Part shown: piece by piece, positions 2,739-47,158 of the stretch
Numbering within the stretch: the stretch's first letter is position 1
Layout of the letters: each line of letters begins with the position of its first letter
Source: Archangium primigenium
GTDB taxonomy: Bacteria; Myxococcota; Myxococcia; Myxococcales; Myxococcaceae
Length of the DNA stretch: 64,000 nucleotides
Reading direction: 5' to 3'
Assembly: GCF_016904885.1 (NCBI RefSeq)
Contig: NZ_JADWYI010000001.1
Location: 62,001-126,000, forward strand
Notes under the pieces: model-generated
Seen by the model: the letters and a program-made list of their open reading frames with translations, nothing else
Databases searched by the model: none
Told to the model about the DNA's origin: nothing
Position numbers and translations under genes: made by a program

Positions 2739-3377
<639 letters not shown>

Positions 3378-3424
3378 GTCACCCTCCCAGTCCTGTCGTG
3401 GTTGAAAAACGTCGGGGTTGAAAC

Positions 3425-4627
3425 TCAGAACACCGTGCCGTCGCTGTCGATCCGGATGGGCGGGGGGCCCCCGGAACGCTTCTGCGCGGCGATCTTCCGC
3501 CCCGCGCTCCAGGTGCCGCCTTGCAGCACCTTGGCCAGGGGCAATTGCGCGGACGTCATGCCCAGACGCTCGCGCACGCGCTTGCCCAGCTCGTCCAGGA
3601 GCGCCACCGTGAGCGCGCGCCACTCGACGATGGGCTCCTCGCCCGGCGTGAACACGTCCTGGAGCAGCCGCGCCTCGCGGGGCACGAGCAGCCCGGTGTC
3701 CACGAGCAGCCCGCCGTTGCGGTACTCGGGCAGCCCGGTGAGCGCGTCCAGCGCCGTCACCGTGATGCCACCTTCCTCCAGGGGCTCGAGCAGCGAGTAC
3801 GTGAGCCACTGCGACAACTTGTGGAAGGGCACGAGCGAGTCCGGATGGTCCGTGGCGCCCAGCGCCGAGTGCGGCCACACGTCTCCCAGGTTCACCCCGT
3901 CCAGGGTGATGCGCCCCGGCCAGATGGGCCCCAGCGACTCGAGCACCTGGCCGAGCACCTCCGTGGCCGTCACCTGGCGGCCCGCGCCGCCCAGCAGGTC
4001 ATAGAGCGCGCCCGGGCGCGGCAGCACGCGCCCGAGGCCGTGCAGCAGCTCCAGTCGGCCCTCCAGGCCCGCGAGCGGGTTCGTCGCCGTGACCTGGAAG
4101 CCCTCGGCGAGCGCGTCGCGGCTCAGGCGCCGCAGGCCCTCGGCGTCCGCCTGGAGCGGCCGCGCGGGGTCCGAGGAGAACGCGCCCGCGAGGAACATGT
4201 GGAAGCTGGCCACGGCCAGGCCCTCGGAGCGCGCGAAGGTGCCGCCGCTGCCCGGCTCCACGTACTTCCAGGAGGGGCCGCTGCCCGCGTCCAGGAGCAC
4301 GCTGGTGATGACCAGGTCCAGCTTGGCGCGGGCGCGCTCGGCGGGGGTGAGCCCCGCGAGCCGCGAGTCCAGGAGGGCGTTGCGCTGGACACCGCCCACG
4401 TCGAAGTGGCCCCAGCGGCTGTGCACCGGGATGTCGAGCGTGGGGTAGGCCTCGCGCGTGACGTCCAGCACGAAGTCCGCCACGCCCGGCAGCCGGGCCA
4501 TGTCCACGCGGAAGTGGGCCAGCCGGTCGGCGAGCCCCAGCTCCAGGAGCGCATGGCAGCGCTCGCGGATGGCGCGCGGGCTGCGCAGATGGGTGACCGT
4601 GGGCGAGGTGGGAACGGTGTCAGGCAT
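3425..4627 (-). CDS. URC4/Urg3 family protein (DUF1688)
   Basis: A 400-residue protein recognised as DUF1688, the family of yeast URC4 and Aspergillus urg3, which is genetically required for uracil use as a nitrogen source through the URC pathway. Recognisable segments include [13 protein letters not shown] near the N-terminus, the central WKYVEPGSG and the C-terminal [15 protein letters not shown]. Its exact reaction is, to my knowledge, not settled. The ATG at 4627 overlaps the stop region of the URC1-like gene by 8 bases, indicating translational coupling, and upp follows directly. The context supports a role in pyrimidine degradation rather than in riboflavin or folate synthesis. Confidence 0.85.
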
Positions 4628-5873
4628 CCAGCGCCCTGCCCTTCACGTCCTGCAATTCCGTCTCGGAGGCCACCTTGCCGGTGGTGAAGTAGCCGGCGGC
4701 CTTCTTGGCCTCCATCTCCACCTTGGCGTCCGCGGGGACGAGCTCCTCCGGGATGGGCACGCGCTCGAGGATCTCGATGCCCGACTTCACGATGGCGTCG
4801 TGCTTCATGTCGCTCATGGACACGAAGCGGTGGATGCGGGTGATGCCCATCCAGTGCAGCGCGTCCGGCATCAGCTCCTGGAAGCGCATGTCCTGCACGC
4901 CCGCCACGCACTCGGTGCGGTGGAAGTAGGTGGCCGCCGAGTCGCCGCCCTCCTGGCGCTTTCTCGCGTTGTACACGAGGAACTTGGTCACCTCGCCGAG
5001 CGCCCGGCCCTCCTTGCGCGAGTAGACGATGACGCCCGCGCCGCCCTCCTGCGCCGTCTGGATGCACACCTCGATGCCGTGGGTGAGGTAGGGCCGACAG
5101 GTGCAGATGTCGCTGCCGAACACGTCCGAGCCGTTGCACTCGTCATGCACGCGCACGGCCAGCGGGATGTCCGGGTTGGAGATGGTGTCCATGTCCCCGA
5201 AGAAATAGACCGTCTGGCCACCGATGGGCGGCAGGAAGACGTCCAGGTCCGAGCGGGTGATGAGCTCGGGGAACATGCCGCCCGTCTGCTCGAAGAGGCC
5301 GCGGCGCAGCGCCGCCTCGGTGAGGCCGAAGCGCCGGGCGATGCCGGGCAGGTACCACACGGGCTCGAGCGCCGCCTTCACCACCGTCACGTCCCCGTTG
5401 GCGCAGAGGATCTTCCCGTCCGGCTTGAGCCGGCCCGCGGTGATGGCGTCGCGCAGCTCGGGCATGTTGATGTGCGCCCGGGTGATGGCGATGGAGGGCC
5501 GGATGTCCAGGCCCTGCTTGAGGTAGGTGCCGAACACCTGCGGGGCCACCGCGCCCCACGGATCCAGGGACACGATGCGGTCCGGGTTCCCCCAGGCCTT
5601 GTGGGGGCCGATCTGCACGGCGGGCGCGGTGTTGGTGAGGTCCGCGCGATGGTCCTGGGTGAGCTGGCCCGCGGCCACGGCCACGGCGCGGTAGATGGCG
5701 TAGGAGCCCGAGTGCGTGCCCACCACGTTGCGGTGCGCGGGCTCGGTGAGCGTGGCCACCACGGGGCCGCGCAGCATGGGGTCGGACTCGCCCCAACGGA
5801 TGGGGAGCACCTGGGCGTCGCTGTCCGGGTGCGAGGTGAGACGAATGGCGTTGGTGTTCTTCTTGTCGGGCAT
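4620..5873 (-). CDS. URC1-like GTP cyclohydrolase II homologue
   Basis: A 417-residue protein homologous to GTP cyclohydrolase II (RibA), but of the longer URC1 type found with DUF1688. The cyclohydrolase zinc site appears conserved: one cysteine in HDECNGSD and two in SDICTCRP. The N-terminal ~180 residues, starting MPDKKNTNAIRL, are not part of bacterial RibA. In the URC pathway URC1 is thought to open the pyrimidine ring of a uracil nucleotide. The ATG at 5873 has a strong AAGGAGGG ribosome-binding site. The gene follows mmsA after 72 bp and overlaps URC4 by 8 bp. It should not be annotated as a riboflavin gene; no other rib genes are nearby. Confidence 0.85.
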   Translation of the reverse strand: MPDKKNTNAIRLTSHPDSDAQVLPIRWGESDPMLRGPVVATLTEPAHRNVVGTHSGSYAIYRAVAVAAGQLTQDHRADLTNTAPAVQIGPHKAWGNPDRIVSLDPWGAVAPQVFGTYLKQGLDIRPSIAITRAHINMPELRDAITAGRLKPDGKILCANGDVTVVKAALEPVWYLPGIARRFGLTEAALRRGLFEQTGGMFPELITRSDLDVFLPPIGGQTVYFFGDMDTISNPDIPLAVRVHDECNGSDVFGSDICTCRPYLTHGIEVCIQTAQEGGAGVIVYSRKEGRALGEVTKFLVYNARKRQEGGDSAATYFHRTECVAGVQDMRFQELMPDALHWMGITRIHRFVSMSDMKHDAIVKSGIEILERVPIPEELVPADAKVEMEAKKAAGYFTTGKVASETELQDVKGRALDA

Positions 5874-5945
5874 GACGCCCTCCTTGCGAATGCTCGGGAA
5901 GTCTTGGGGGGAAGGGGAGAAGCGGGGGGAAGCGGCGCGGCGGGG

Positions 5946-7430
5946 TCAGCTCATCCAGCTGCCGTCGGTGCGGCCGCCCCACTTGCGGGTGACCTTCTTG
6001 AGGTCCGTCCAGAAGCCCAGGCTCGCCACGCCGGTGATGTCCCCGTGGCCGAACTTGGACTCCCCCACCCCACCGAAGGAGAAGGGCTCGCGGGGCACGG
6101 GCACGCCCACGTTGACGCCCACCATGCCCACGCGCGCGCCCTCCACCACCGCCTGCGCCACGGCGCCGTTGGTGGTGAAGATGGAGGCGGCGTTGCCGTA
6201 GGGCGAGGCGTTCTCCACCTCCAGCGCGGCCGACAGCGTGGGCACGCGCACGATGGCCAGCACCGGGCCGAACAGCTCGCGCTGCGCGGCCTCCATGTCC
6301 GGCCGCACGCCGTCGATCACCGTGGGCCCGAGCCAGTGGCCATTCGCCCAGCGCTCGCCCGCGGGCGTCTTGCCCCGGCCATCCAGCACCACCCGCGCCC
6401 CGGCCCGCTCCGCCGCGGCGATGGCCGTCTCCAGGCGCGTGAGGCTCGCCCGATCGATGAGCGCGCCCATGCCGGGGCCGCACTCCAGGCGGCCCGCGCG
6501 CTCGAGCACCTGGTCGAGGATGGGCTGCACGTCCCCCACCGCGAGCAGCACGCTGGCGGCCATGCAGCGCTGGCCCGCGCACCCGGTGAAGGAGTCCACC
6601 ACGGACTGGGCGGTGAGGCCCGGCTCGGCGTCCGGCACGACGATGAGGTGGTTCTTCGCGCCCCCGAGCGCCAGCACGCGCTTGCCCCGCGCGCTGCCCT
6701 CGGCGTACACGCGCCGCGCCACCGCGGACGAGCCCACGAAGCCCACCGCGCGCACCTCCGGGTGGGCGAGAATCGCCTCCACCGCCTCGCGCCCGCCGTG
6801 CACCACGGAGAAGACGCCGGGCGGCACCCCCGCCTCCTGGAGCAGCTCCCCCAGGGCACACGCCGTGAGCGGCACCTTCTCCGAGGGCTTGAGGATGAAG
6901 GCGTTGCCCACCGTGAGCGCGGTGGGGATCATCCACAGGGGCACCATGGCGGGGAAGTTGAACGGGGTGATGCCGGCCACCACGCCCAGGGGCTCGCGGC
7001 GGAACTCGCAGCTCACGCCCCGGCTCACCTCCAGCGCGCCGCCGGTGTCCAGGTTCTGCAGGGACAGGGCGAAGTCACACACCTCCATGCCCTTGAGCAG
7101 ACCCGCGCGCGCCTCTGCCACCGTCTTGCCGGCCTCGCTCGCGGCCAGGTTCGCCAGCCGATCCAGGTGCTGCTCGAGCAGCGCCCGGAAGCGCGCCATG
7201 ATGGCGGTGCGCTCGCGCAGGGACACCGCGCGCCAGCCCACGCTCGCCACGCGCGCGGCCTCCACCGCCTGGGCCACACCGGCCTCGGAGGTCATCGGCA
7301 CCCGGCCGATGACGCCGCCGGTGTAGGGGCTGCGCACCTCGAGCAGCGGCGCGCCGGGCGGCAAGAGCCACTCGCCTCCCACGAGGTTGCGGCAGGTGAT
7401 GGGGCTCTCGGGCAATTGAACGAAGGACAC
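5946..7430 (-). CDS. mmsA: CoA-acylating (methyl)malonate-semialdehyde dehydrogenase
   Basis: A 494-residue aldehyde dehydrogenase of the MmsA/IolA type, which converts methylmalonate or malonate semialdehyde to propionyl-CoA or acetyl-CoA with NAD. Evidence is the catalytic cysteine in GQRCMAAS, the cofactor region ITPFNFPAMVPLWM and the C-terminal motif GHGDITGVAS. Length is typical. It starts with GTG at 7430, preceded by GGGGGAAG. It is the first gene of the uracil cluster. The yeast URC pathway releases a three-carbon unit found as 3-hydroxypropionate, so this enzyme could instead oxidise malonate semialdehyde to acetyl-CoA. That substrate assignment is inferred from context; valine or inositol catabolism is the alternative. 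Confidence 0.9.
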   Translation of the reverse strand: MSFVQLPESPITCRNLVGGEWLLPPGAPLLEVRSPYTGGVIGRVPMTSEAGVAQAVEAARVASVGWRAVSLRERTAIMARFRALLEQHLDRLANLAASEAGKTVAEARAGLLKGMEVCDFALSLQNLDTGGALEVSRGVSCEFRREPLGVVAGITPFNFPAMVPLWMIPTALTVGNAFILKPSEKVPLTACALGELLQEAGVPPGVFSVVHGGREAVEAILAHPEVRAVGFVGSSAVARRVYAEGSARGKRVLALGGAKNHLIVVPDAEPGLTAQSVVDSFTGCAGQRCMAASVLLAVGDVQPILDQVLERAGRLECGPGMGALIDRASLTRLETAIAAAERAGARVVLDGRGKTPAGERWANGHWLGPTVIDGVRPDMEAAQRELFGPVLAIVRVPTLSAALEVENASPYGNAASIFTTNGAVAQAVVEGARVGMVGVNVGVPVPREPFSFGGVGESKFGHGDITGVASLGFWTDLKKVTRKWGGRTDGSWMS

Positions 7431-7637: not shown

Positions 7638-8873
7638 TCACCAGCGCACGGGCAGCGACTCGAAGCCCCGCGCGTGCAGGCCCTGGCTCTTGAGCCGCGA
7701 GCAGCGCTCCTCGTCCAGCCGGGCCTGGGGCAGCTCCTCCAGCATCCCCTCGAGCAGCGCCCGGAGCGTGTGCTTCACCAGCCCCGCGTCCAGCCGGTGG
7801 TGCATCCCGAAGCCCAGGCTCAGGTGCTTCTGCAGGAAGGGGTCCCGATCGATGAGGAACTGGTCGGGATCCGGGAACACGCTGGCGTCGCGGTTGGCCG
7901 CGGAGATGCACAGCATCACCCCATCGCCCTCGCGCACGGTGCGCCCGCGCAGGCTGAACGTCTGGCGCGCGGTGCGGTGCAGCACGGGCACCGCGGGGCT
8001 CAGCCGCAGCATCTCCTCCAGCGCGCCCGTCATGAGCGCGGGCTGCGCGCGCAGCGCCGGGGCCCGGTCGGGCTGGGACAGCAATTCGTGCAAGCCATTG
8101 CCGAGCTGATCCGCGAAGGACGCCAGGCCCGAGACGAGCAGCAGCGCGACGGTGGCCACGCGCGGCTCGGGGTTGGGGGTGCCCGGCACGTGGGCGCGCA
8201 GCATGTGGCTGAGCAGGTCCGCCCCGGGGGACTGGCGCCGCGCGGCGAGCAGCGGCCCGAGATAGTCGAGGAACTCGCGGGTGGCGAGCAGGGCGCGGCG
8301 GGCCAGGGCGCCCGCGTCGAGCCCCGTCACGGGCGACTGGACCTCGGCGATGGCGCGCGTCCAGGCCAGGAAGCCCTCCCGGTGGGGGGCGGGCAGGTCC
8401 ATCAACTCGGCGAGCACGAGCCCCGGCAGCACCCCCGTCACCGCCCGCACCGCGTCCATGCGTCCCTGGCCGCGCACCCGCGAGAGCAGCAACCCCACCT
8501 GGCGCCGCAGGGCGGGCCGGAAGGACTCGAGCGCCTCGGGCGAGAAGCCGGGCGCGGCCTGCCGCCGCAGCGCCATCCACTCCCGGCTGCCCTCCGCGCG
8601 CCCCGAGGCGCCCTTGCGGAAGGCCTGGAGCAGCTCCTCGCCCGGCCCCTGCAACGGCGCCTCGTGGAAGTCCACGCGCGCGGCCCCCAGCCGCTCATCC
8701 CGCAGGCCGTCCCGCACGTCCGCGTGGCTCAGGAAGACCCAGGCCCCCAGCGCGTCCGACCAGCGAGGCCCCTCGTCCGCGCCCCCCTCCGCCTGGGCAC
8801 CCGTCGTCTCCGCGGAGAGACCCATCGGGAAGCCGGGAACGGCGAGGGAGAGCTTGCGGGCGGCGCTCGACAT
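7638..8873 (-). CDS. Cytochrome P450 homologue without heme cysteine
   Basis: A 411-residue protein with the cytochrome P450 fold: ExxR at E287-R290, the PERF-like region FPDPDQF and the usual bacterial length. However, the heme-binding loop reads LSLGFGMHHRLDAG, where the invariant cysteine is R360 (codon CGG at 7794-7796) and the following glycine is aspartate. The I-helix also lacks the acid-threonine pair (VSGLASFAD at about 247-255). It is therefore unlikely to be a normal heme-thiolate monooxygenase. Cysteine-less P450 homologues such as EryCII act as partner proteins of glycosyltransferases, but none is adjacent here. The ATG at 8873 is preceded by AAGAGGA. An AT-rich stretch lies just upstream. 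Confidence 0.85.
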   Translation of the reverse strand: MSSAARKLSLAVPGFPMGLSAETTGAQAEGGADEGPRWSDALGAWVFLSHADVRDGLRDERLGAARVDFHEAPLQGPGEELLQAFRKGASGRAEGSREWMALRRQAAPGFSPEALESFRPALRRQVGLLLSRVRGQGRMDAVRAVTGVLPGLVLAELMDLPAPHREGFLAWTRAIAEVQSPVTGLDAGALARRALLATREFLDYLGPLLAARRQSPGADLLSHMLRAHVPGTPNPEPRVATVALLLVSGLASFADQLGNGLHELLSQPDRAPALRAQPALMTGALEEMLRLSPAVPVLHRTARQTFSLRGRTVREGDGVMLCISAANRDASVFPDPDQFLIDRDPFLQKHLSLGFGMHHRLDAGLVKHTLRALLEGMLEELPQARLDEERCSRLKSQGLHARGFESLPVRW

Positions 8874-9416
8874 GGCGGTCCTCTTTTCTCGGGCTGCGAA
8901 AATTTAGAAAGATTGCTTGCTATTCCGGATGTTCTCGGATTCTGCGTTCCACCTTTGCAGACCTCGGGCCAGCGGCGCGGCGGCGTCGGACACGCACCCC
9001 CGCTGCAAAAGACGGCGTGGGGCTGGAAAGCAGCCCCCCAAAAGTGCCGGGTGATGGACCTTTGTCGCCGCCATCCTGAACCGCGGGCGGAGTACGCCAC
9101 GACCCAGGGGGTCCCCTTGAACCACCTCGGTCCCCCTCGGACGAAGGACATGTCGGGTAGCGCGCAGCACCGTGGGTGTCCTGTCCGGCTTGCGGTGAGG
9201 CGGCCGGGTGCGCAGGGCGGGTGTCATGGGGCCCCGGAGTGCCAGAACCAGGGGGTGGGCGCGGGAGGTCCCGCGCGACCCGGCCCCCGGAGGACCCCTG
9301 ACAGTGCGCGGGGGGACAGGACGTGGGGGGTGGGAGCCTGGGGGGAAGGGTGTCAGGGGGGGCGGGCATCATGGACGCCGCCGCTGGCTCCCCTGGGCTG
9401 GCCGTCCCGTGCGCCC
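8874..9416. other. Intergenic region with hairpins, no gene
   Basis: No supportable coding sequence lies between the P450-like gene and the methyltransferase gene; this is the only gene-free stretch over 300 bases. The part next to the P450-like gene (8885-8945) is clearly AT-richer and probably holds its promoter. TTTGCAG at 8954-8960 is mirrored by CTGCAAA at 9003-9009. A perfect 7-bp hairpin lies at 9019-9037 (GGGGCTG, loop GAAAG, CAGCCCC). A perfect 8+2+8 palindrome lies at 9259-9276. The remaining sequence is G-rich on the plus strand with no other pattern I can interpret. Confidence 0.6.
9259..9276. repeat. Perfect 18-bp palindrome upstream of methyltransferase
   Basis: The sequence GCGCGGGAGGTCCCGCGC has perfect 8-bp arms around two bases. 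It sits 140 bp upstream of the methyltransferase start. It could be a dimeric regulator's operator or an RNA hairpin. No function is established. Confidence 0.45.
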
Positions 9417-10148
9417 ATGCCCCACTACCGCCTGACCGATGACGATGCCGTCGACTGGCTCCGCTCCCTGCCCGCGGGCTCGGCGGATCTGGTCATCACG
9501 GATCCCGCCTACGAATCGCTTGAGAAGCACCGGGCGGTGGGCACCACCACGCGGCTCAAGCAGGGCAAGGGCTCGAGCAACCCCTGGTTCCCCATCTTCC
9601 CCAACACGCGCTTCCCGGCGCTCTTCCAGGCGCTGTGGCGGGTGCTCAAGCGCGACGCGCACCTCTATCTGTTCTGTGACGCGGAGACGATGTTCGTGGC
9701 CCGGCCGGTGGCGGAGGCCGCGGGCTTCCGCTTCTGGAAGCCGCTCATCTGGGACAAGCAGCACATCGGCATGGGCTACCACTACCGGGCGCGCTACGAG
9801 TGCATCCTCTTCTTCGAGAAGGGCCGGCGGCGGCTGAGCGACCTGGGGGTGGCGGACGTGCTGAGCGTGCCGCGGGTGCACCGGGGCTACCCCACGGAGA
9901 AGCCCGTGGCGCTCAGCGAGGTACTCATCCGCCAGAGCAGCGCGCCGGGGGACACGGTGGTGGACCCCTTCATGGGCTCGGGCTCGGTGGGGGTGGCGGC
10001 GGCGCGGCTGGGCCGGGACTTCCTCGGCACGGACATCCACCCGCGGGCGCGCGCGCTCACCGAGGAGCGCCTGCGGCTGGCGGGCGCCCTGCCCCAGCTG
10101 CCCCAGACCCGGAGCGATGACGACCTGCTCCGGGCCCTGGGCGGCTAG
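9417..10148 (+). CDS. Orphan DNA methyltransferase, DPAY type
   Basis: A 243-residue site-specific DNA methyltransferase of the N6-adenine/N4-cytosine class. The catalytic motif IV, DPAY (near residues 30-33), comes before the AdoMet-binding motif I, DPFMGSGSVG (near 182-191), which is the beta-class order. The protein is short and has no large target-recognition insert. The ATG at 9417 gives the natural MPHYRLTDDDAVDWL start, although the frame is open far upstream and no strong ribosome-binding site is seen. No restriction endonuclease gene is adjacent, so it looks like a solitary regulatory or housekeeping methyltransferase. Its stop TAG shares the bases CTAG (10145-10148) with the stop of the convergent kinase gene. 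Confidence 0.88.
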   Translation: MPHYRLTDDDAVDWLRSLPAGSADLVITDPAYESLEKHRAVGTTTRLKQGKGSSNPWFPIFPNTRFPALFQALWRVLKRDAHLYLFCDAETMFVARPVAEAAGFRFWKPLIWDKQHIGMGYHYRARYECILFFEKGRRRLSDLGVADVLSVPRVHRGYPTEKPVALSEVLIRQSSAPGDTVVDPFMGSGSVGVAAARLGRDFLGTDIHPRARALTEERLRLAGALPQLPQTRSDDDLLRALGG

Positions 10149-12595
10149 CGGGGCACGCCGGGGCGGCGCCCGACGAGCGACAGCAGCACGGCGAAGAGCT
10201 CCGCGGGCTCCACGGGCTTGGGCACGTGGCTGTTGAAGCCGGCCAGCAGCACGCGCGTGCGATCCTCCGCCCGGGCGAAGGCGGTGAGGGCCACGGCGGG
10301 CAGCCGGCCCCCGGCGCTCGCGGGCAGCGCGCGCACGCCCTGGATGAGCGCGTAGCCGTCCTCGCCGGGCATACCGATGTCGGACACGAGCAGGTCCGGC
10401 GTCACGCGCCGCAGCAGTTCCAGACCCTCGCGCGCGGAGGCCGCCACGTGGACGCTCGCCCCGCGGGAGGTGAGCAGCGTGCGCAAGAGCTCGCGCGTGT
10501 CCTCCTCGTCCTCCACCACGAGGATGCGCAGGCCCTCGAGCGAGGGCGCGCCGGTGTCCGGCGGCGGGGGCACGGGCGCGGGGGTGACGGCGCCCTGGGA
10601 CGGGCCGCTCCGCCGGGACAGGGTGGCCAGGGGCAGCCGCACCCAGAAGCACGCGCCCTGGCCCAGGCCCGCGCTCTCCACGCCCACCGTGCCCCCGTGC
10701 ATCTCCACCAGGTGGCGCACGATGGACAGGCCCAGGCCGAGCCCGCCAAAGCGCCGCGTGCTGCCGCCCTCCGCCTGGCGGAAGCGCTCGAAGACGTGGG
10801 GGAGGAAGTCCGGGGAGATGCCCTGGCCGGTGTCCTGGACGAAGAGCGTGAGGGTGGTGTCGTCACGCTCCAGCCACACCTCCACGGCGCCCTCGGGCGG
10901 GGTGAACTTCACGGCGTTGGACAAGAGGTTCCACACCACCTGCTGCAGCCGGTGCGGATCGCCCATCACCCGTCCGCTGGCGTCCAGCGCGCAGCGGATT
11001 CGCAGGGCGCGCGCCTGGGCCGCCGGCCGCACCGTCTCGAGCGCCTGCTCCACCACGACCGACAGGTCCACGCGCTCCTGATCCAGCTTGAGGTTGCCCG
11101 CCATGATGCGGCTCACGTCGAGCAGGTCCTCGATGAGCTGGGCCTGGGCCCGGGCGTTGCGCTCCACCGTCTCCAGGGCGCGCGCGCTCTTGTCCGCGGG
11201 CAGGCCGCCCGCGCGCAAGAGGCCCACCCAGCCGAGCATGGCCGTGAGCGGCGTGCGCAGCTCGTGGCTCACCGTGGCGAGGAACTCGTCCTTGAGGCGG
11301 TTGGCCTCCTCGGCGGTGGTGCGCGCGGCCTTCTCGCGCTCGAACAGGCGCGCCGTCTCCTCCTGGGCGCGCAGGCGCTCCACGCCCAGGGCGATGCTGT
11401 CCGCGGCGTGCCGCAGCACCTCGGCGGTGCCCGCGAGCGGCTCGCCCCGGGACACCACCGCCACCACGCCCACGCACCGGTCGCCCGCCAGCAGCGGATG
11501 GCCCAGGAAGCGCTCCGCCCCGGACAGCGACGCCACGAGCGGCTCGCGCGAGCGCGCCACCCGCTCCACCCACTCCACGTCCAGCGCCCCCTCGCTCCGC
11601 GGCCCCGCGCTGGCCCCGGGCACGGGCACCTGGGCGCCCTCCTCCAGGAGCCACACCCGGGCGAGCGGCACCTCGAGGAAGCGCACCAGGGCCTCGGCGC
11701 ACCGCGCGAGCATGTCCGCCCGGTCCCGTCCGCGCGTGAGGGCCAGGCCCACGCTGGCCATCAGGCCGCTGAAGCGCGCCTGGCGCGCGAGCACCTCCTG
11801 AGCCTCCTGGTGCGCGGAGATGTCCTGCATGGCGCCCACCATGCGCACCGGCCGGCCCGCGGCGTCGAGCGCCACCTGGCCCCGGTCCACCACGGGCGTG
11901 TAGCTCCCGTCCCGGCACCGGAAGCGGTAGCGCGCGCCCCAGCGCGGCCCGCCGTCGGCGACCACGGCCCGGAGCTCGCGCACCACGCGCTCGCGATCCT
12001 CGGGGTGGATGCGCTCGAACCACCAGGCGGTGTCCGCCCCGACGTCCTCCACCCCGTAGCCGTAGGTGGCGCGCAAGGCGTCGTTCCAGGTGACGCGCTG
12101 GGTGAGCAAGTCCCAGTCCCAGATGGCGTCCGAGGTGGCGAGCGTGGCCAGGCGGTAGCGCTCCTCGGACTGGCGCAGGGCGCGCTCGGCCCGGGCGCGC
12201 TCGGCGGCGCCGTGGGCCTCGCGCAGGGCGCGCTCGATGCAGGGCACCAGGCGCTCGAGCCGGTCCTTGAGCACGTAGTCGGTGGCGCCGCGCTTGAGCA
12301 GCTCGATGGCGGTGTCCTCGCCCAGCGCGCCGGAGACGAAGAGAAAGGGCGTCTCCGGGTGGGACGCGCGCGCGGTGGCGAGCGCCTCGCCGCCGCCGAA
12401 GCCCGGCACGTGGTAGTCGCAGAGGATGACGTCGAAGGGCCGCCCCGCGAGCGCCGAGGTGAAGTCCTCCCGGGTGTCCACCCGCTCGAGCGCCACGCGC
12501 AGGCCCCCGTCCTCCAGGCATGCCTGGAGCAGCTCGGCGTCCAGGGCACTGTCTTCCAAGAGCAGCGCGGAGAGCACCCGCTCCGTCCCGCTCAT
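10145..12595 (-). CDS. Hybrid sensor kinase REC-PAS-GAF-HK-REC
   Basis: An 816-residue cytoplasmic hybrid kinase. In order: an N-terminal receiver (about 8-125, phospho-Asp in ILCDYHVPG), a PAS domain with a PAC tail (about 145-260), a GAF-like domain (about 270-400), HisKA (His in ATVSHELRTPL), HATPase (FRQAEGGSTRRFGGLGLGLS) and a C-terminal receiver (Asp in LLVSDIGMPG). It is the last gene of a three-gene operon: its ATG overlaps the stop of the response regulator gene by four bases (12592-12595). The N-terminal receiver suggests it takes phosphate or a docking signal from the upstream kinase or regulator; this is inference. Confidence 0.92.
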   Translation of the reverse strand: MSGTERVLSALLLEDSALDAELLQACLEDGGLRVALERVDTREDFTSALAGRPFDVILCDYHVPGFGGGEALATARASHPETPFLFVSGALGEDTAIELLKRGATDYVLKDRLERLVPCIERALREAHGAAERARAERALRQSEERYRLATLATSDAIWDWDLLTQRVTWNDALRATYGYGVEDVGADTAWWFERIHPEDRERVVRELRAVVADGGPRWGARYRFRCRDGSYTPVVDRGQVALDAAGRPVRMVGAMQDISAHQEAQEVLARQARFSGLMASVGLALTRGRDRADMLARCAEALVRFLEVPLARVWLLEEGAQVPVPGASAGPRSEGALDVEWVERVARSREPLVASLSGAERFLGHPLLAGDRCVGVVAVVSRGEPLAGTAEVLRHAADSIALGVERLRAQEETARLFEREKAARTTAEEANRLKDEFLATVSHELRTPLTAMLGWVGLLRAGGLPADKSARALETVERNARAQAQLIEDLLDVSRIMAGNLKLDQERVDLSVVVEQALETVRPAAQARALRIRCALDASGRVMGDPHRLQQVVWNLLSNAVKFTPPEGAVEVWLERDDTTLTLFVQDTGQGISPDFLPHVFERFRQAEGGSTRRFGGLGLGLSIVRHLVEMHGGTVGVESAGLGQGACFWVRLPLATLSRRSGPSQGAVTPAPVPPPPDTGAPSLEGLRILVVEDEEDTRELLRTLLTSRGASVHVAASAREGLELLRRVTPDLLVSDIGMPGEDGYALIQGVRALPASAGGRLPAVALTAFARAEDRTRVLLAGFNSHVPKPVEPAELFAVLLSLVGRRPGVPR

Positions 12596-13050
12596 CCGCC
12601 GCCCTTGCGCACCGTGCCCGGAGGCGGCTGGTTGAGGATGGCCCAGAACAGGCCCAGCTCCCGCAGCGCCGAGGAGAAGGCGTCGAAGCCCACGGGCTTG
12701 ACCACGTACGCGTTGACGCCCAGGGAGTAGGCGCGCGCGAGGTCCGGCTCCTCGCGCGAGGACGTGAGCATCACCACGGGAATCTGCCGCAGGTCCGGGT
12801 CGCCCTTGAGCTGGGCGAGCACCTCGAGCCCGTTGAGCTTGGGCAGCTTCAGGTCCAGGAGCACCACCGCGGGGTGGCCCGGGACGCGCTCGCCATGCGT
12901 GCCCCGGCGGTAGAGGTAGTCGAGGGCCTGCTGCCCATCGGTCACCACGTCCACCTCGTTGGCGAGGTGGGTCTCCTCGAGCGCGGCCAGGGTGAGCTGC
13001 ACGTCGTTGTCACTGTCCTCGACGAGGAGGATTCGCTTGAGTTCACTCAT
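12592..13050 (-). CDS. Single-domain response regulator, Rcp1-like
   Basis: A 152-residue protein consisting of one receiver domain and a short proline-rich tail. It shows the acidic pair in LVEDSDND, the phospho-Asp in LLDLKLPKLNG, the Thr in VVMLTSS and the Lys in VVKPVGF. The insertion after beta-strand 3 and the wording resemble Rcp1-type regulators that pair with phytochrome-like kinases. It has no DNA-binding or enzyme domain, so it is likely a phosphate shuttle. It is coupled by ATGA overlaps to the kinase genes on both sides, which suggests transfer from the 1021-residue kinase through this regulator to the 816-residue kinase. Confidence 0.92.
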   Translation of the reverse strand: MSELKRILLVEDSDNDVQLTLAALEETHLANEVDVVTDGQQALDYLYRRGTHGERVPGHPAVVLLDLKLPKLNGLEVLAQLKGDPDLRQIPVVMLTSSREEPDLARAYSLGVNAYVVKPVGFDAFSSALRELGLFWAILNQPPPGTVRKGGG

Positions 13051-16000
13051 GGCTGGGAGCCCTCTGGCGCGAGCGCCCGGGGAAGGGTGAAGTGGAAGCT
13101 GGCGCCCTGGTCCACCGCGCCCTCGGCCCAGACGCGGCCGCCATGGCGGGTGATGATGCGCCGCACGTTGGCCAGGCCGATGCCCGTGCCCTCGAACTGC
13201 TCGGTGGTGTGCAGCCGCTGGAAGACGCCGAAGAGCTTGTCCACGTACTGCATCTCGAAGCCCACGCCGTTGTCGCGCACGTGCACCCGCACCTCGTCGG
13301 CGCCCTGCTCGGCGGAGATGTCGATGTGGGCCTCGGCGCGCGGCCGGGTGTACTTCACCGCGTTGGCCAGGAGGTTGCGCAGCGCCATGCGCAGGAGCGC
13401 CGCGTCCGCGTACACGGCGGGCAGGGACGCCACGCGCCAGTGGATGCGCCGCCCCTCGGCGTCCGGCCCCAGGTCCGAGCGCACCTCGTCCACCAGCCGG
13501 CCCAGGTCCACCCGGCCGCGCTTGAGCTCCGCGCGGCCCAGGCGGCTGAAGGCGAGCAGGTCATCCACGAGCTGGCCGCCGCGCTGCGCCGCCTCCGCGA
13601 TGGTGCGCAGGTGGCGCTGGGACTTGTCGTCCAGGGAGCCCCGGCTGCTCTTGGCCAACAGCTCCGCGAAGCCGAGGATGTGCCGCAGGGGCGCGCGCAG
13701 GTCGTGGCTCACCGAGTAGCTGAAGCTCTCCAGCTCGCGGTTGGACTCCAGGAGCTGGGCGGTGCGCTCGACGACCTTGCGCTCCAGCTCGGCGTCCAGC
13801 TCCGCGCGCAGCCGATGGATTTCCAGGCGCGCCCCCACCCGCGCCAGCAGCTCGCGCGCGGAGAAGGGCTTGACGAGGTAGTCGTCCGCGCCCGCGTTCA
13901 TGCCCTCCACGTGGGACTCCTCGCCCGCGCGCGCCGACAACAGGATGACGGGGATGAGCCGCGTGCCCGGGTCCTCCTTGAGCGCGCGCAAGAGCCCGAA
14001 GCCATCCAGCCGGGGCATCATCACGTCCGAGAGCACGAGCTCCGGAGGCTCGCGGTGCACGGCCTCCAGCGCCGCCTGGCCATCGGCCACCGCCTCCACG
14101 CGCCACGTGGCGCCGAGCAGTCGGGTGACGTACTCGCGCATGTCCGCGTTGTCGTCCGCGAGCACGATGCGCGCGCCCGCGGTGGGGTGCACGCGGGACG
14201 GGGTGGCCGCCGCGGCGGCGGACGGGGCCGACGCCGGGGTGGACGCCGGAGCCGCCCTTGGCGTGTCCCCTGGAGCGTCCACCCAGCGCATCGCCTCCTC
14301 CACGTAGGCCCGGGAGCCCGAGGCGCCGCGCGGACGGGGCGCGCCCAGCCGCTCGGCGGGCAGGTGCGCGTGGCCCCGCGGCAGCGTCAGGAAGAAGGTG
14401 GTGCCCTCGCCCGGCTGGCTCTCGGCGCGCACCGTGCCGCCGTGCAGCGCCACCAACTCGCGCACCAGGGCCAGCCCGATGCCGCTGCCCTCGTGGGTGC
14501 GCGAGCGCGAGCCGTGCACGCGGTGGAAGCGGTCGAAGATGCGCGGCAGCTCGTCCGGGGGGATGCCCGTGCCGGTGTCGCGCACGCCCAGCTCCACGTG
14601 GGTGGCGTCCACCGCGCGCAGCGTGACGGCGATCTCCCCCACGAAGGTGAACTTGAGCGCGTTGGACAGCAGGTTGAGGACGATCTTCTCCCACATGTCC
14701 GCGTCCACGTAGACGGGCTCGGGCAGGGGCTCGCACTCCACGCGCAGCCGCAGCCCCGCGCGCTCCACCGCGGAGCGGAACGTGCTGGCCAGCTCGCGCG
14801 TGAGCACGGCCAGGTCCGTGGGCACGAAGGCCGCCTCGACCCGCCCCGCCTCCAGGCGGCTGAAGTCCAGCAGCGCGTTGACGAGCTTGAGCAGGCGCAG
14901 GGCGTTGCGGTGCACGGTCTCCAGCGACTCCCCGGTGAGCGCGGGCTCGGGGGCCGCGAGCGCGTCCTCGGTGGGGCCGAGCATGAGCGTGAGGGGCGTG
15001 CGGAACTCGTGGCTCACGTTGGAGAAGAAGGCCGTCTTGGAGCGGTCCAGCTCGGCGAGCGCCTCGGCGCGCCGACGCTCCACCTCGAAGGACTCGGCGA
15101 TGGACAGCACCCGGGCCACCTGGGCCGCGGCCCGCTCGGCGAACTGCACGTAGCCCTCGTCCACCGCCCGGCGTGGACTGAGCCCCAGGCACAGGAAGCC
15201 CGAGGCCCGCTCCCCCGAGCCCACCAGGATGGGCACCACCAGCGCCGCGTGGGCGGGCTCCGGCCACGGGCCCCCCGGGGGCTCGAAGCCCCAGCGCTCG
15301 CGCAGGGCCGACACCCGCACCACCCCGCCCGTCGCGCGGGCCTCCGCGAGCGGCCAGGGCGCCTGGGCCCCCGGCTCCAGCGACACGCGGGCGGCCAGGG
15401 CGGGGCTCTCCGGGGGCAGCCCCGCCGAGGCGGTGAGCCGCGCCTCCCGCCCCGCCTCGTCCACGAGGTAGAAGGCGCAGAAGGGCACGTCCAGCGTCGC
15501 CGAGCCCAGGGTGTGGGCCGCCAGCAGACACACCTCCTGGGGCGTGCGCGCCGGGGCCGTGCGCTCCGCCAGCTCGCGCAGCACCTGGGTGCGCCGCTCG
15601 TTGAGGACGCGGTAGGTGGTCTCCATCACCGCGTTGAAGATGCCCTCCACCCGGCCCCCCGCCCCGCGGATGGGGCTCAGGGTGTAGTTGAAGTAGCACT
15701 CCTCCGTGTACCCATGGCGGCGCATGAGCAGGAGGAAGTCCTCCTTGTAGGTGACCTCGCCCACCTCCAGCACCCGGGCGAACTGCTGGCCCACGCTGTC
15801 CCAGATCTCCGGCCACACCTCCGCGCCGGCACGCCCCAGGGCCCACGGGTGCTTGCCTCCGGCGATGGGGGCATAGCCCTCGTTGTAGATCATCACCAGG
15901 TCCGGCCCCCAGTAGAGGGCGATGGGAAAGCCGGACCCCAGACAGATGCTGACGGCGGCGCGCAGACTCGCGGACCAGGTGCTCACGGGCCCCAGGCGCG

Positions 16001-16112
16001 ACTGGGACCAATCGACGGAGCGCAGCAGCGCACCCACCGCGCCGCCCCCCATCAGCACCCCTTCCACGTCCTCGGAAGGAGCGGGAGGAGCGGCGCTCGT
16101 CGGCTTCGTCAT
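13047..16112 (-). CDS. Hybrid sensor kinase PAS-GAF-HK-REC-HK
   Basis: A 1021-residue kinase with the same plan as the truncated gene at the left edge. An N-terminal PAS-like sensor (about 25-150) contains the segment YNEGYAPIAGGKHP. GAF spans about 155-330. The first kinase core has its His in SNVSHEFRTPL, then HATPase to about 585. A receiver (Asp in LSDVMMPRLDG) spans about 635-750, and a second kinase core of the phytochrome type (His in SVSHDLRAPLR) is followed by HATPase to about 1010. It is the first gene of the three-gene operon and overlaps the response regulator gene by ATGA (13047-13050). Two complete kinase cores around one receiver is unusual. Confidence 0.92.
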   Translation of the reverse strand: MTKPTSAAPPAPSEDVEGVLMGGGAVGALLRSVDWSQSRLGPVSTWSASLRAAVSICLGSGFPIALYWGPDLVMIYNEGYAPIAGGKHPWALGRAGAEVWPEIWDSVGQQFARVLEVGEVTYKEDFLLLMRRHGYTEECYFNYTLSPIRGAGGRVEGIFNAVMETTYRVLNERRTQVLRELAERTAPARTPQEVCLLAAHTLGSATLDVPFCAFYLVDEAGREARLTASAGLPPESPALAARVSLEPGAQAPWPLAEARATGGVVRVSALRERWGFEPPGGPWPEPAHAALVVPILVGSGERASGFLCLGLSPRRAVDEGYVQFAERAAAQVARVLSIAESFEVERRRAEALAELDRSKTAFFSNVSHEFRTPLTLMLGPTEDALAAPEPALTGESLETVHRNALRLLKLVNALLDFSRLEAGRVEAAFVPTDLAVLTRELASTFRSAVERAGLRLRVECEPLPEPVYVDADMWEKIVLNLLSNALKFTFVGEIAVTLRAVDATHVELGVRDTGTGIPPDELPRIFDRFHRVHGSRSRTHEGSGIGLALVRELVALHGGTVRAESQPGEGTTFFLTLPRGHAHLPAERLGAPRPRGASGSRAYVEEAMRWVDAPGDTPRAAPASTPASAPSAAAAATPSRVHPTAGARIVLADDNADMREYVTRLLGATWRVEAVADGQAALEAVHREPPELVLSDVMMPRLDGFGLLRALKEDPGTRLIPVILLSARAGEESHVEGMNAGADDYLVKPFSARELLARVGARLEIHRLRAELDAELERKVVERTAQLLESNRELESFSYSVSHDLRAPLRHILGFAELLAKSSRGSLDDKSQRHLRTIAEAAQRGGQLVDDLLAFSRLGRAELKRGRVDLGRLVDEVRSDLGPDAEGRRIHWRVASLPAVYADAALLRMALRNLLANAVKYTRPRAEAHIDISAEQGADEVRVHVRDNGVGFEMQYVDKLFGVFQRLHTTEQFEGTGIGLANVRRIITRHGGRVWAEGAVDQGASFHFTLPRALAPEGSQP

Positions 16113-45997: not shown

Positions 45998-47158
45998 TCA
46001 GTCGCGCAGGTAGTGGCAGGTGTAGCCGTCCGGGTTCCGCACCAGGTAGTCCTGGTGGTAGCCCTCGGCCGGGGTGAACGGGCCCGCGGGGGTGATGGTC
46101 GTGACGACGGGACGCTTCCACTTGCCCGACGCGTCCACCCGGGCCTTCACCGCCTCGGCCGCCCGGCGCTGCGCGTCCGACAGGTAGAAGATGGCCGAGC
46201 GGTACTGCGTGCCCACGTCATTGCCCTGGCGGTTGAGCGTCGTGGGGTCGTGCATGCGGAAGAACCACTTCTCCAGCAGCGACTCGTACGTCAGCACCTT
46301 GGGATTGAAGACGACCCGCACCGCCTCCGCGTGTCCCGTCTTCCCCGTGTGCACGTCCTCGTAGGTGGGGTGCGCGAAGGCCTGGGTGCCGCCCGTGTAG
46401 CCCACCTCCGTCTCCACCACGCCGGGAATCTTGCGCAGCAGGTCCTCCATGCCCCAGAAGCACCCGCCGGCCAGGTACGCCGTCTCCGTCAGGGCGTCCT
46501 TGATGTTGGCGGCGGGAGGGGCCTTGGCCTCGGGCGCCGGGGCCGCGCGGCCGAACGCGGGCAGGAGGGCGCCGTAGCCCTGCGCGGCCAGCGCGTCCAC
46601 GGGCACGAAGCGCAGGGACGCCGAGTTGATGCAATAGCGCAGCCCCGTGGGCTCGGGCCCGTCCTCGAAGACATGGCCCAGGTGCGAGTCGCCGTCCTTC
46701 GAGCGGACCTCCACGCGCGCCATGCCCAGGCTCACGTCCCGCTTCTCCACCACCCGGCGGGCGTCCACCGGCTTGGTGAAGCTCGGCCAGCCCGTGCCGG
46801 AGTCGAACTTGTCCCGCGAGGAGAAGAGCGGCTCGCCGCTGACCACGTCCACGTAGAGGCCCTCCTCGTGGTGGTTCCAGAAGGCGTTGCGGAAGGCGGG
46901 CTCGGTGCCTTCGTGCTGCGTCACCTGGTAGGCCTGGGGCGACAGGGCGCGGCGCAGCGCCTCGTCCGAGGGCTTCGTGTACCGCTCGCCCTCGACCGCC
47001 CGGGGCAGGGCGGCGGCCGCCTCGGCCCGCGCGGCGGGCGGAGCGCCCCGCGCATCGCTGCAGGCGCTCGACACCACGAGCAGGGCCAGGGCCAGGGGCC
47101 ACAGCCAGGACACGCCCCCGGCGGGGGCGCGGAGAACAGCGGGGAGGGAGGACGGCAT
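45998..47158 (-). CDS. msrBA: Lipoprotein MsrB-MsrA methionine sulfoxide reductase
   Basis: A 386-residue fusion in B-A order with a lipoprotein signal ([13 protein letters not shown]). The MsrB part (about 50-180) has its catalytic Cys in RYCINSASL, but the structural-zinc CxxC positions read YVDVVSGE and the resolving position reads SGTGWPSF instead of SGCGWPSF. The MsrA part (about 215-380) has GGCFWG and C-terminal GYTCHYLRD. It repairs oxidised methionine on envelope proteins, probably at the outer or inner membrane on the periplasmic side. Electron supply (a DsbD-like or thioredoxin-like protein) is not encoded next to it. Confidence 0.93.

Follow-up and report, generated by a model that had tools for sequence, protein, structure and literature searches.

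The P450L locus

P450L (7638..8873, minus strand) encodes a cytochrome P450 homologue of 411 amino acids that has no heme-ligating cysteine, an assignment based on its open reading frame and translation, a Pfam match, orthologues, and an AF2 model. It lies in a window of 64,000 nucleotides, the whole stretch of Archangium primigenium DNA that was analysed. The frame starts with ATG, contains no internal stops, and is preceded by a ribosome-binding-like site, GAGGA (8879..8883, minus strand); a similar purine run stands directly ahead of the start codon in all three P450L orthologues. The protein was recognised by the Pfam p450 model at 47.4 bits (cut-off 22.8), with a match that covers residues 280-343 only and ends ahead of the heme loop. 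This was the lowest score among the 40 P450 genes of the genome (43 Pfam p450 matches, three genes each being split in two). The heme cysteine is kept in all 39 others, 36 of which were assigned by a strict motif, two by a looser motif, and one by eye; these genes overlap with the homologue alignment described below. In the AF2 model (pLDDT 83.6, pTM 0.85) the P450 fold is complete, and the C-, I-, K-, and L-helices are all present; the model contains no heme and is unreliable over residues 1-31 (pLDDT <50). Among the VIA matches listed, the best for this model was CYP109A2, with a Z score of 43.3 over 373 residues.

An MmsA-like dehydrogenase, a GTP cyclohydrolase II-like protein, a DUF1688 protein, and a uracil phosphoribosyltransferase (UPRT) are encoded in a run at 2739-7430 (minus strand), the UPRT gene being the last of the operon in the window. 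Divergent from P450L lies a gene for a DNA methylase (N6_N4_Mtase; 9426..10148, plus strand), identified from gene order, Pfam, and the loci of relatives. Each of the four genus genomes has the order histidine kinase, response regulator, kinase, methylase, P450L, MmsA, GTP cyclohydrolase II-like protein, DUF1688 protein, with the methylase always on the strand opposite to P450L. The kinase-receiver-kinase trio occupies 10145-16112 (minus strand) and keeps its order in all four; its member nearest to P450L is 65-68% identical across them. To the left of the window, at a distance of approximately 10 kb from P450L, lies the gene for a P450 of a different class that has the Cys (L002, G000:C1:58635-59930), and a 72% identical copy (L106) was found on the matching side in G032. 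Elsewhere in the window, 45998-47158 (minus strand) encodes a fused methionine sulfoxide reductase with a SelR domain followed by a PMSR domain.

Orthologues and phylogeny

Homologues were searched for in 96 genomes of the family, and the best candidates, at most 19 per genome, were scored. Orthologues of P450L were found as single genes at the same locus in all three other genus genomes examined, with identities of 51% (G032), 49% (G033), and 48% (G034), and all share with P450L the heme loop FGxHHRLDAG. One Cys-bearing gene of G006 (44%) scores amid these three, and the genes that follow are Cys-bearing, have 39-45% identity, and belong to the same genus and three others. A total of 79 loci were matched, from which two weak matches (L015 and L061) and seven duplicates were excluded. 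The resulting alignment has 71 rows, 67 with Cys and four with Arg at the ligand position, the latter being P450L and one gene from each of the three sister genomes.

The four Arg proteins form one clade (support 100/100) within a clade of six that also holds the Cys-bearing L034 and L036 (100/99) and whose internal order the tree does not settle. Branches are long (0.45 for the stem of the Arg clade, 0.74 for the window tip, and 0.59 for the stem of the three others), so the exact placement of the clade is less certain than the clade itself. Since the four copies are monophyletic, the sequences are most simply explained by one loss of the cysteine in the ancestor of the genus.

The DNA pattern for HHRLDAG matched 77 sites in 61 of 195 phylum genomes; among the 30 sites read as loci, it lay in a P450L-like frame only in the four known genes. 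A profile of the four Arg proteins, for which at most the nine best candidates per genome were taken, gave at least 41 matches at E <= 1e-60 in 12 of 193 phylum genomes from four genera, a count that includes the four Arg copies and other matches in part of which the Cys was checked. The single contig search that reached beyond the phylum returned just one weak Burkholderia match to P450L.

Residues altered and retained around the heme site

The earlier note on this DNA had placed arginine at the position of the invariant cysteine, and translation and alignment confirm this: R360 (codon CGG; 7794..7796, minus strand) takes the place of the ligand in the FxxGxxxCxG loop, in P450L as in its three orthologues. 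A sequencing error, which the note had considered unlikely, is ruled out by the presence of Arg in three more assemblies and by two different codons overall (CGG, CGG, CGT, and CGT in the four genomes). Two residues further on, D362 (GAC; 7788..7790, minus strand) replaces Gly at Cys+2; Asp is fixed in the four Cys-less proteins and absent from the 32 nearest Cys-bearing relatives, all of which have Gly. The ExxR motif, E287-M-L-R290 (8004..8015, minus strand), is retained in all four proteins and the frame is intact, as had been stated. The reported loss of the I-helix acid-threonine pair held for the threonine and not for the acid. Segment 248-255 (SGLASFAD; 8109..8132, minus strand) has lost H250, T252, and T253 and kept D255, so that VSGLASFADQ of P450L aligns with, for example, FAGHTTTTDQ of relatives, and position 251 in the 32 relatives is T (15), L (12), V (4), or I (1), never an acid. 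Because the acid was already absent in these Cys-bearing proteins, the I-helix change specific to the Cys-less clade is confined to H250, T252, and T253.

In the C-helix (97-110; 8544..8585, minus strand), delimited by alignment and the AF2 model, His99 has become W or A and R103 is kept. By general P450 numbering we take position 99 to be the propionate His and R300 (7974..7976, minus strand; retained in 4/4) to be the propionate Arg. The scaffold positions unchanged in the clade are W45, R103, F110, ExxR, R300, and H358. Twenty-six residues are fixed in the four proteins and rare in relatives, whereas there is no cysteine that all four share. The runs LRRQAAPGF and HHRLDAGL belong to their best-conserved stretches.

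Positions with the same residue in at least 85% of the 32 Cys-bearing relatives were defined as conserved (131 positions), and 24 of them are altered in all four Cys-less proteins. Alterations affect seven of 14 heme contacts (99, 248, 252, 253, 360, 362, and 366) and 17 of 117 other positions (Fisher p 0.004), a test that is partly post hoc because the contact list was drawn from general P450 knowledge after the residue comparison had been seen. As a control, ten groups of Cys-bearing relatives were compared in the same manner, two of which consisted of one gene each; nine had no heme-contact change and one had a single change (L072/L079, position 248).

Loss of heme from P450L is probable, because arginine is not a usual heme ligand and the heme-holding His and Gly are gone. 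The opposing view, that heme is still bound through H358 or H359, the new H368, or some other group in a non-thiolate sensor, a peroxidase-like protein, or a carrier, is unlikely, although several observations fit it: R103, R300, H358, and ExxR survive in all four proteins, the loop run HHRLDAGL is invariant and, like LRRQAAPGF, conserved as it might be around heme with another ligand, H368 is fixed throughout the clade, and a natural serine-ligated P450 in the PDB (9cjg, by the title of its record) indicates that other ligands are tolerated. Against it, His99 and T252 are lost, G362 has become D and A366 V or I, the residue at the Cys position is Arg, not a usual heme ligand, and His359 is not a new ligand because it is common in the Cys-bearing relatives (21/32). 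The retained basic residues leave room for a differently held heme or another anion.

Rather less probable still is a new non-oxidative enzyme in which the emptied pocket would support acid-base or lyase chemistry through R360, D362, D255, and their neighbours. These three residues are invariant in the four proteins despite identities of 48-51%, but sequence comparison gave no spatial cluster that would look catalytic, and D255 is equally conserved in the Cys-bearing relatives (32/32).

Selection

Omega was estimated by codon maximum likelihood (GY+F3X4) over a grid of values. The P450L clade gave approximately 0.18 (lnL -3161.5) and neutrality was rejected, an omega of 1 giving lnL -3246.5. 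One set of Cys-bearing relatives from the same four genomes gave about half that value (approximately 0.08-0.10), and the neighbouring genes gave 0.06-0.08 (MmsA), 0.08-0.10 (URC4), 0.13 (nearest histidine kinase), and 0.08 (methylase). By NG86, dN/dS was 0.73-0.79 when P450L was compared with its orthologues in the sister genomes and 0.38-0.51 when these were compared with each other; Cys-bearing relatives, in three sets, gave 0.16-0.47, and MmsA gave 0.08-0.30. P450L has 79/51/97% GC at the three codon positions, and NG86 counts at a third-position GC of 97% are expected to overstate dN/dS. Neutral simulation at the observed distance left 36-39% amino-acid identity, against 48.5-50.1% observed. 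Neutral runs with the composition of the window had a mean of 4.7 stops and were stop-free in 1% of cases; with a GC-rich composition, for which rough figures were assumed, the mean was 1.7 and 17% were stop-free, so that the open frame of P450L is by itself weak proof. Constraint on P450L is weaker than on an active P450, yet it is clearly there.

These values bear on whether P450L is a decaying pseudogene caught ahead of its first stop. Its evolution is fast and relaxed, with an omega roughly double the value for a Cys-bearing relative and the NG86 values given above, and under one simulated composition its stop-free frame is unsurprising. The codon models nevertheless speak against a pseudogene, omega 1 being rejected by 85 log units, and the frames are intact in four genomes with the heme loop itself held fixed; decay is accordingly given a very low probability. 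The earlier note had proposed a real P450 homologue of non-thiolate type, to be judged by the loop in homologues and by selection, and this part of its interpretation is supported: homologues are not uniformly Cys-bearing, the loop FGxHHRLDAG being present with Arg in the orthologues of the three sister genomes, and selection is purifying.

Comparison with P450-derived glycosyltransferase activators

The earlier note had also pointed to Cys-less P450s that act as partners of glycosyltransferases, had seen no such partner nearby, and had suggested a different kind of protein. Both points stand as far as they were scanned and tested. With TIGR04515, the model for P450-derived glycosyltransferase activators, whose cut-off is 343 bits, P450L scored 125.9 bits, lower than the Cys-bearing L034 and L070 (169.2 and 180.5, respectively). 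No glycosyltransferase family was recognised in the window at E <= 0.001 among all 49 script-called genes plus the methylase and UPRT genes; several of these genes are without any Pfam match, and on one side of P450L the window extends for just 7.6 kb. EryCII lacks the heme Cys and the C-helix and binds its partner through an added N-terminal helix (PMC3391682). P450L has the same length as the Cys-bearing L034 (411 amino acids), its helix 97-110 is predicted, and its residues 1-31 are modelled with pLDDT <50; no EryCII chain was named among the matches listed from the solved-structure and fold searches. An EryCII/DesVIII-type activator, rejected here on family score and gene context, is thus a most improbable identity for P450L, even though TIGR04515 is the best-scoring NCBIfam model for P450L and L032 (it is TIGR04538 for the two Cys-bearing relatives scanned) and the Cys is lost as in EryCII. 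P450L may still resemble EryCII more loosely, by serving as a partner protein.

Gene neighbourhood

The gene mmsA starts approximately 200 bp downstream of P450L on the same strand in all four genus genomes, an arrangement that would suit an accessory of the mmsA-URC1-URC4-UPRT operon. Among the family genomes sampled from other genera, however, the mmsA-URC operon is present in all 20, and no P450L match was found within approximately 9 kb of it in any of them. A promoter-like stretch before mmsA is alike by eye in six g3 genomes without P450L there and in the four genus genomes. Because the operon occurs without P450L and shares this stretch, the link is, by comparison of the loci, recent, and a functional tie is probably absent; the accessory role is accordingly very doubtful. 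The products of urg1-3 in fission yeast are a member of the GTP cyclohydrolase II family, a uracil phosphoribosyltransferase, and a protein with DUF1688 (PMC2174524), and URC4 acts on ribosylurea (PMC7530994). Apart from its additional CoA-acylating semialdehyde dehydrogenase, the run in the window resembles a bacterial counterpart of this uracil-catabolism (URC) set of yeasts.

The DNA methylase is, judged from the relatives' loci, probably the older neighbour of the P450 locus. At E <= 1e-40, 12 of the 96 family genomes have an orthologue of it, and Cys-bearing P450s of the P450L subfamily lie near it in four of six g3 genomes (G005, G006, G002, and G003), at distances of 1.2, 2.5, 3.0, and 11.9 kb, respectively. 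There the P450 sits between the methylase and a gene that we take to be trehalose-phosphorylase-like; no P450 was seen beside the methylase in the stretches examined from G004 and G007. In the tree the methylase-side P450 of G006 groups with the Cys-less clade and the other three g3 copies form another clade. Since only the G006 copy groups in this way, position supports descent in place without proving it. The methylase-side locus (L211, L212, L215, and L096) holds P450s of two clades and is perhaps a site of P450 turnover. Elsewhere in the subfamily, a Cys-bearing P450 of G080 (L100:3667-5127) adjoins a squalene-hopene-cyclase-like protein, a hint that terpenoids may be substrates of the parent enzymes.

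Proposed role of P450L

The account we favour, with fair but far from full confidence, is that P450L is a pseudo-P450 that has lost heme and persists for the sake of binding or partnering. A P450 fold would have given up its heme-thiolate ligand, the simplest course being a single event in the genus ancestor, and then have been retained. In the ligand loop R360 and D362 stand in place of Cys and Gly, His99 and the oxygen-activation Thr have been lost, and the scaffold of ExxR, R103, R300, H358, C-helix, and L-helix is kept. The product would not bind heme in the normal way, most likely binds none at all, and would work without oxygen chemistry as a binding protein. For this non-catalytic binding or partner role taken alone the chances are about even. 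As a partner it could stabilise some other enzyme or switch its state; alternatively, it could hold a ligand in the old pocket, where the basic residues R103, R300, H358, and R360 could take an anion at the propionate site. Somewhat short of even is the more specific proposal of a new role outside glycosyltransferases, either as a heme-free ligand-binding or regulatory pseudo-P450 whose cleft of R103, R300, H358, and R360 binds an anion, or as a controller of active paralogues. The fast evolution of P450L and the lack of a candidate partner gene in sight count against the favoured account.

Comparison with known systems

The nearest relatives of P450L by the tree are L034 (G006) and L036 (G005), with 44% and 42% identity, respectively. 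L034, like P450L, lies near the same DNA methylase; unlike P450L, both keep Cys, Gly+2, His99, and the I-helix Thr. The nearest solved folds among the matches listed belong to the CYP109 family (5ofq, 5l91, and 7y97; Z 42.7-43.3, 20-21% identity), whose members are heme-thiolate enzymes. Serine is able to ligate iron, unlike arginine, which is not a usual heme ligand. Serine-ligated P450-G9 (PDB 9cjg; Z 39.0 over 366 residues), as the title of its record describes it, is a natural P450 fold with a non-Cys ligand and has Ser where P450L has Arg; its paper was not among the matches listed in the open-access literature. In the same literature, no Arg-for-Cys P450 clade conserved across genomes outside antibiotic glycosylation appeared among the matches listed.

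Within the very large P450 family, Cys-less members have been set aside as 'pseudo-P450s' in at least one large survey; these were six proteins from 203 Streptomyces species with only one of ExxR and CxG, left without further analysis in the part of the survey consulted (PMC7369989), whereas the P450L clade is conserved across genomes and under selection. The well-studied Cys-less group serves glycosyltransferases, and its members (EryCII, DesVIII, and AknT; TIGR04515) are not oxygenases (PMC3391682). Like P450L, they have the P450 fold without the heme cysteine; P450L differs from them in its score below the cut-off, its apparent lack of extra N-terminal length, its predicted C-helix, the absence of a recognised glycosyltransferase nearby, and its Arg/Asp loop. 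Cys-less P450 homologues are a known kind, and the P450L group is a new clade of them with a new residue. As a second Cys-less clade with known Cys-bearing sisters, it provides a clean case for testing the way in which an oxygenase fold parts with its cofactor and takes on a different task.
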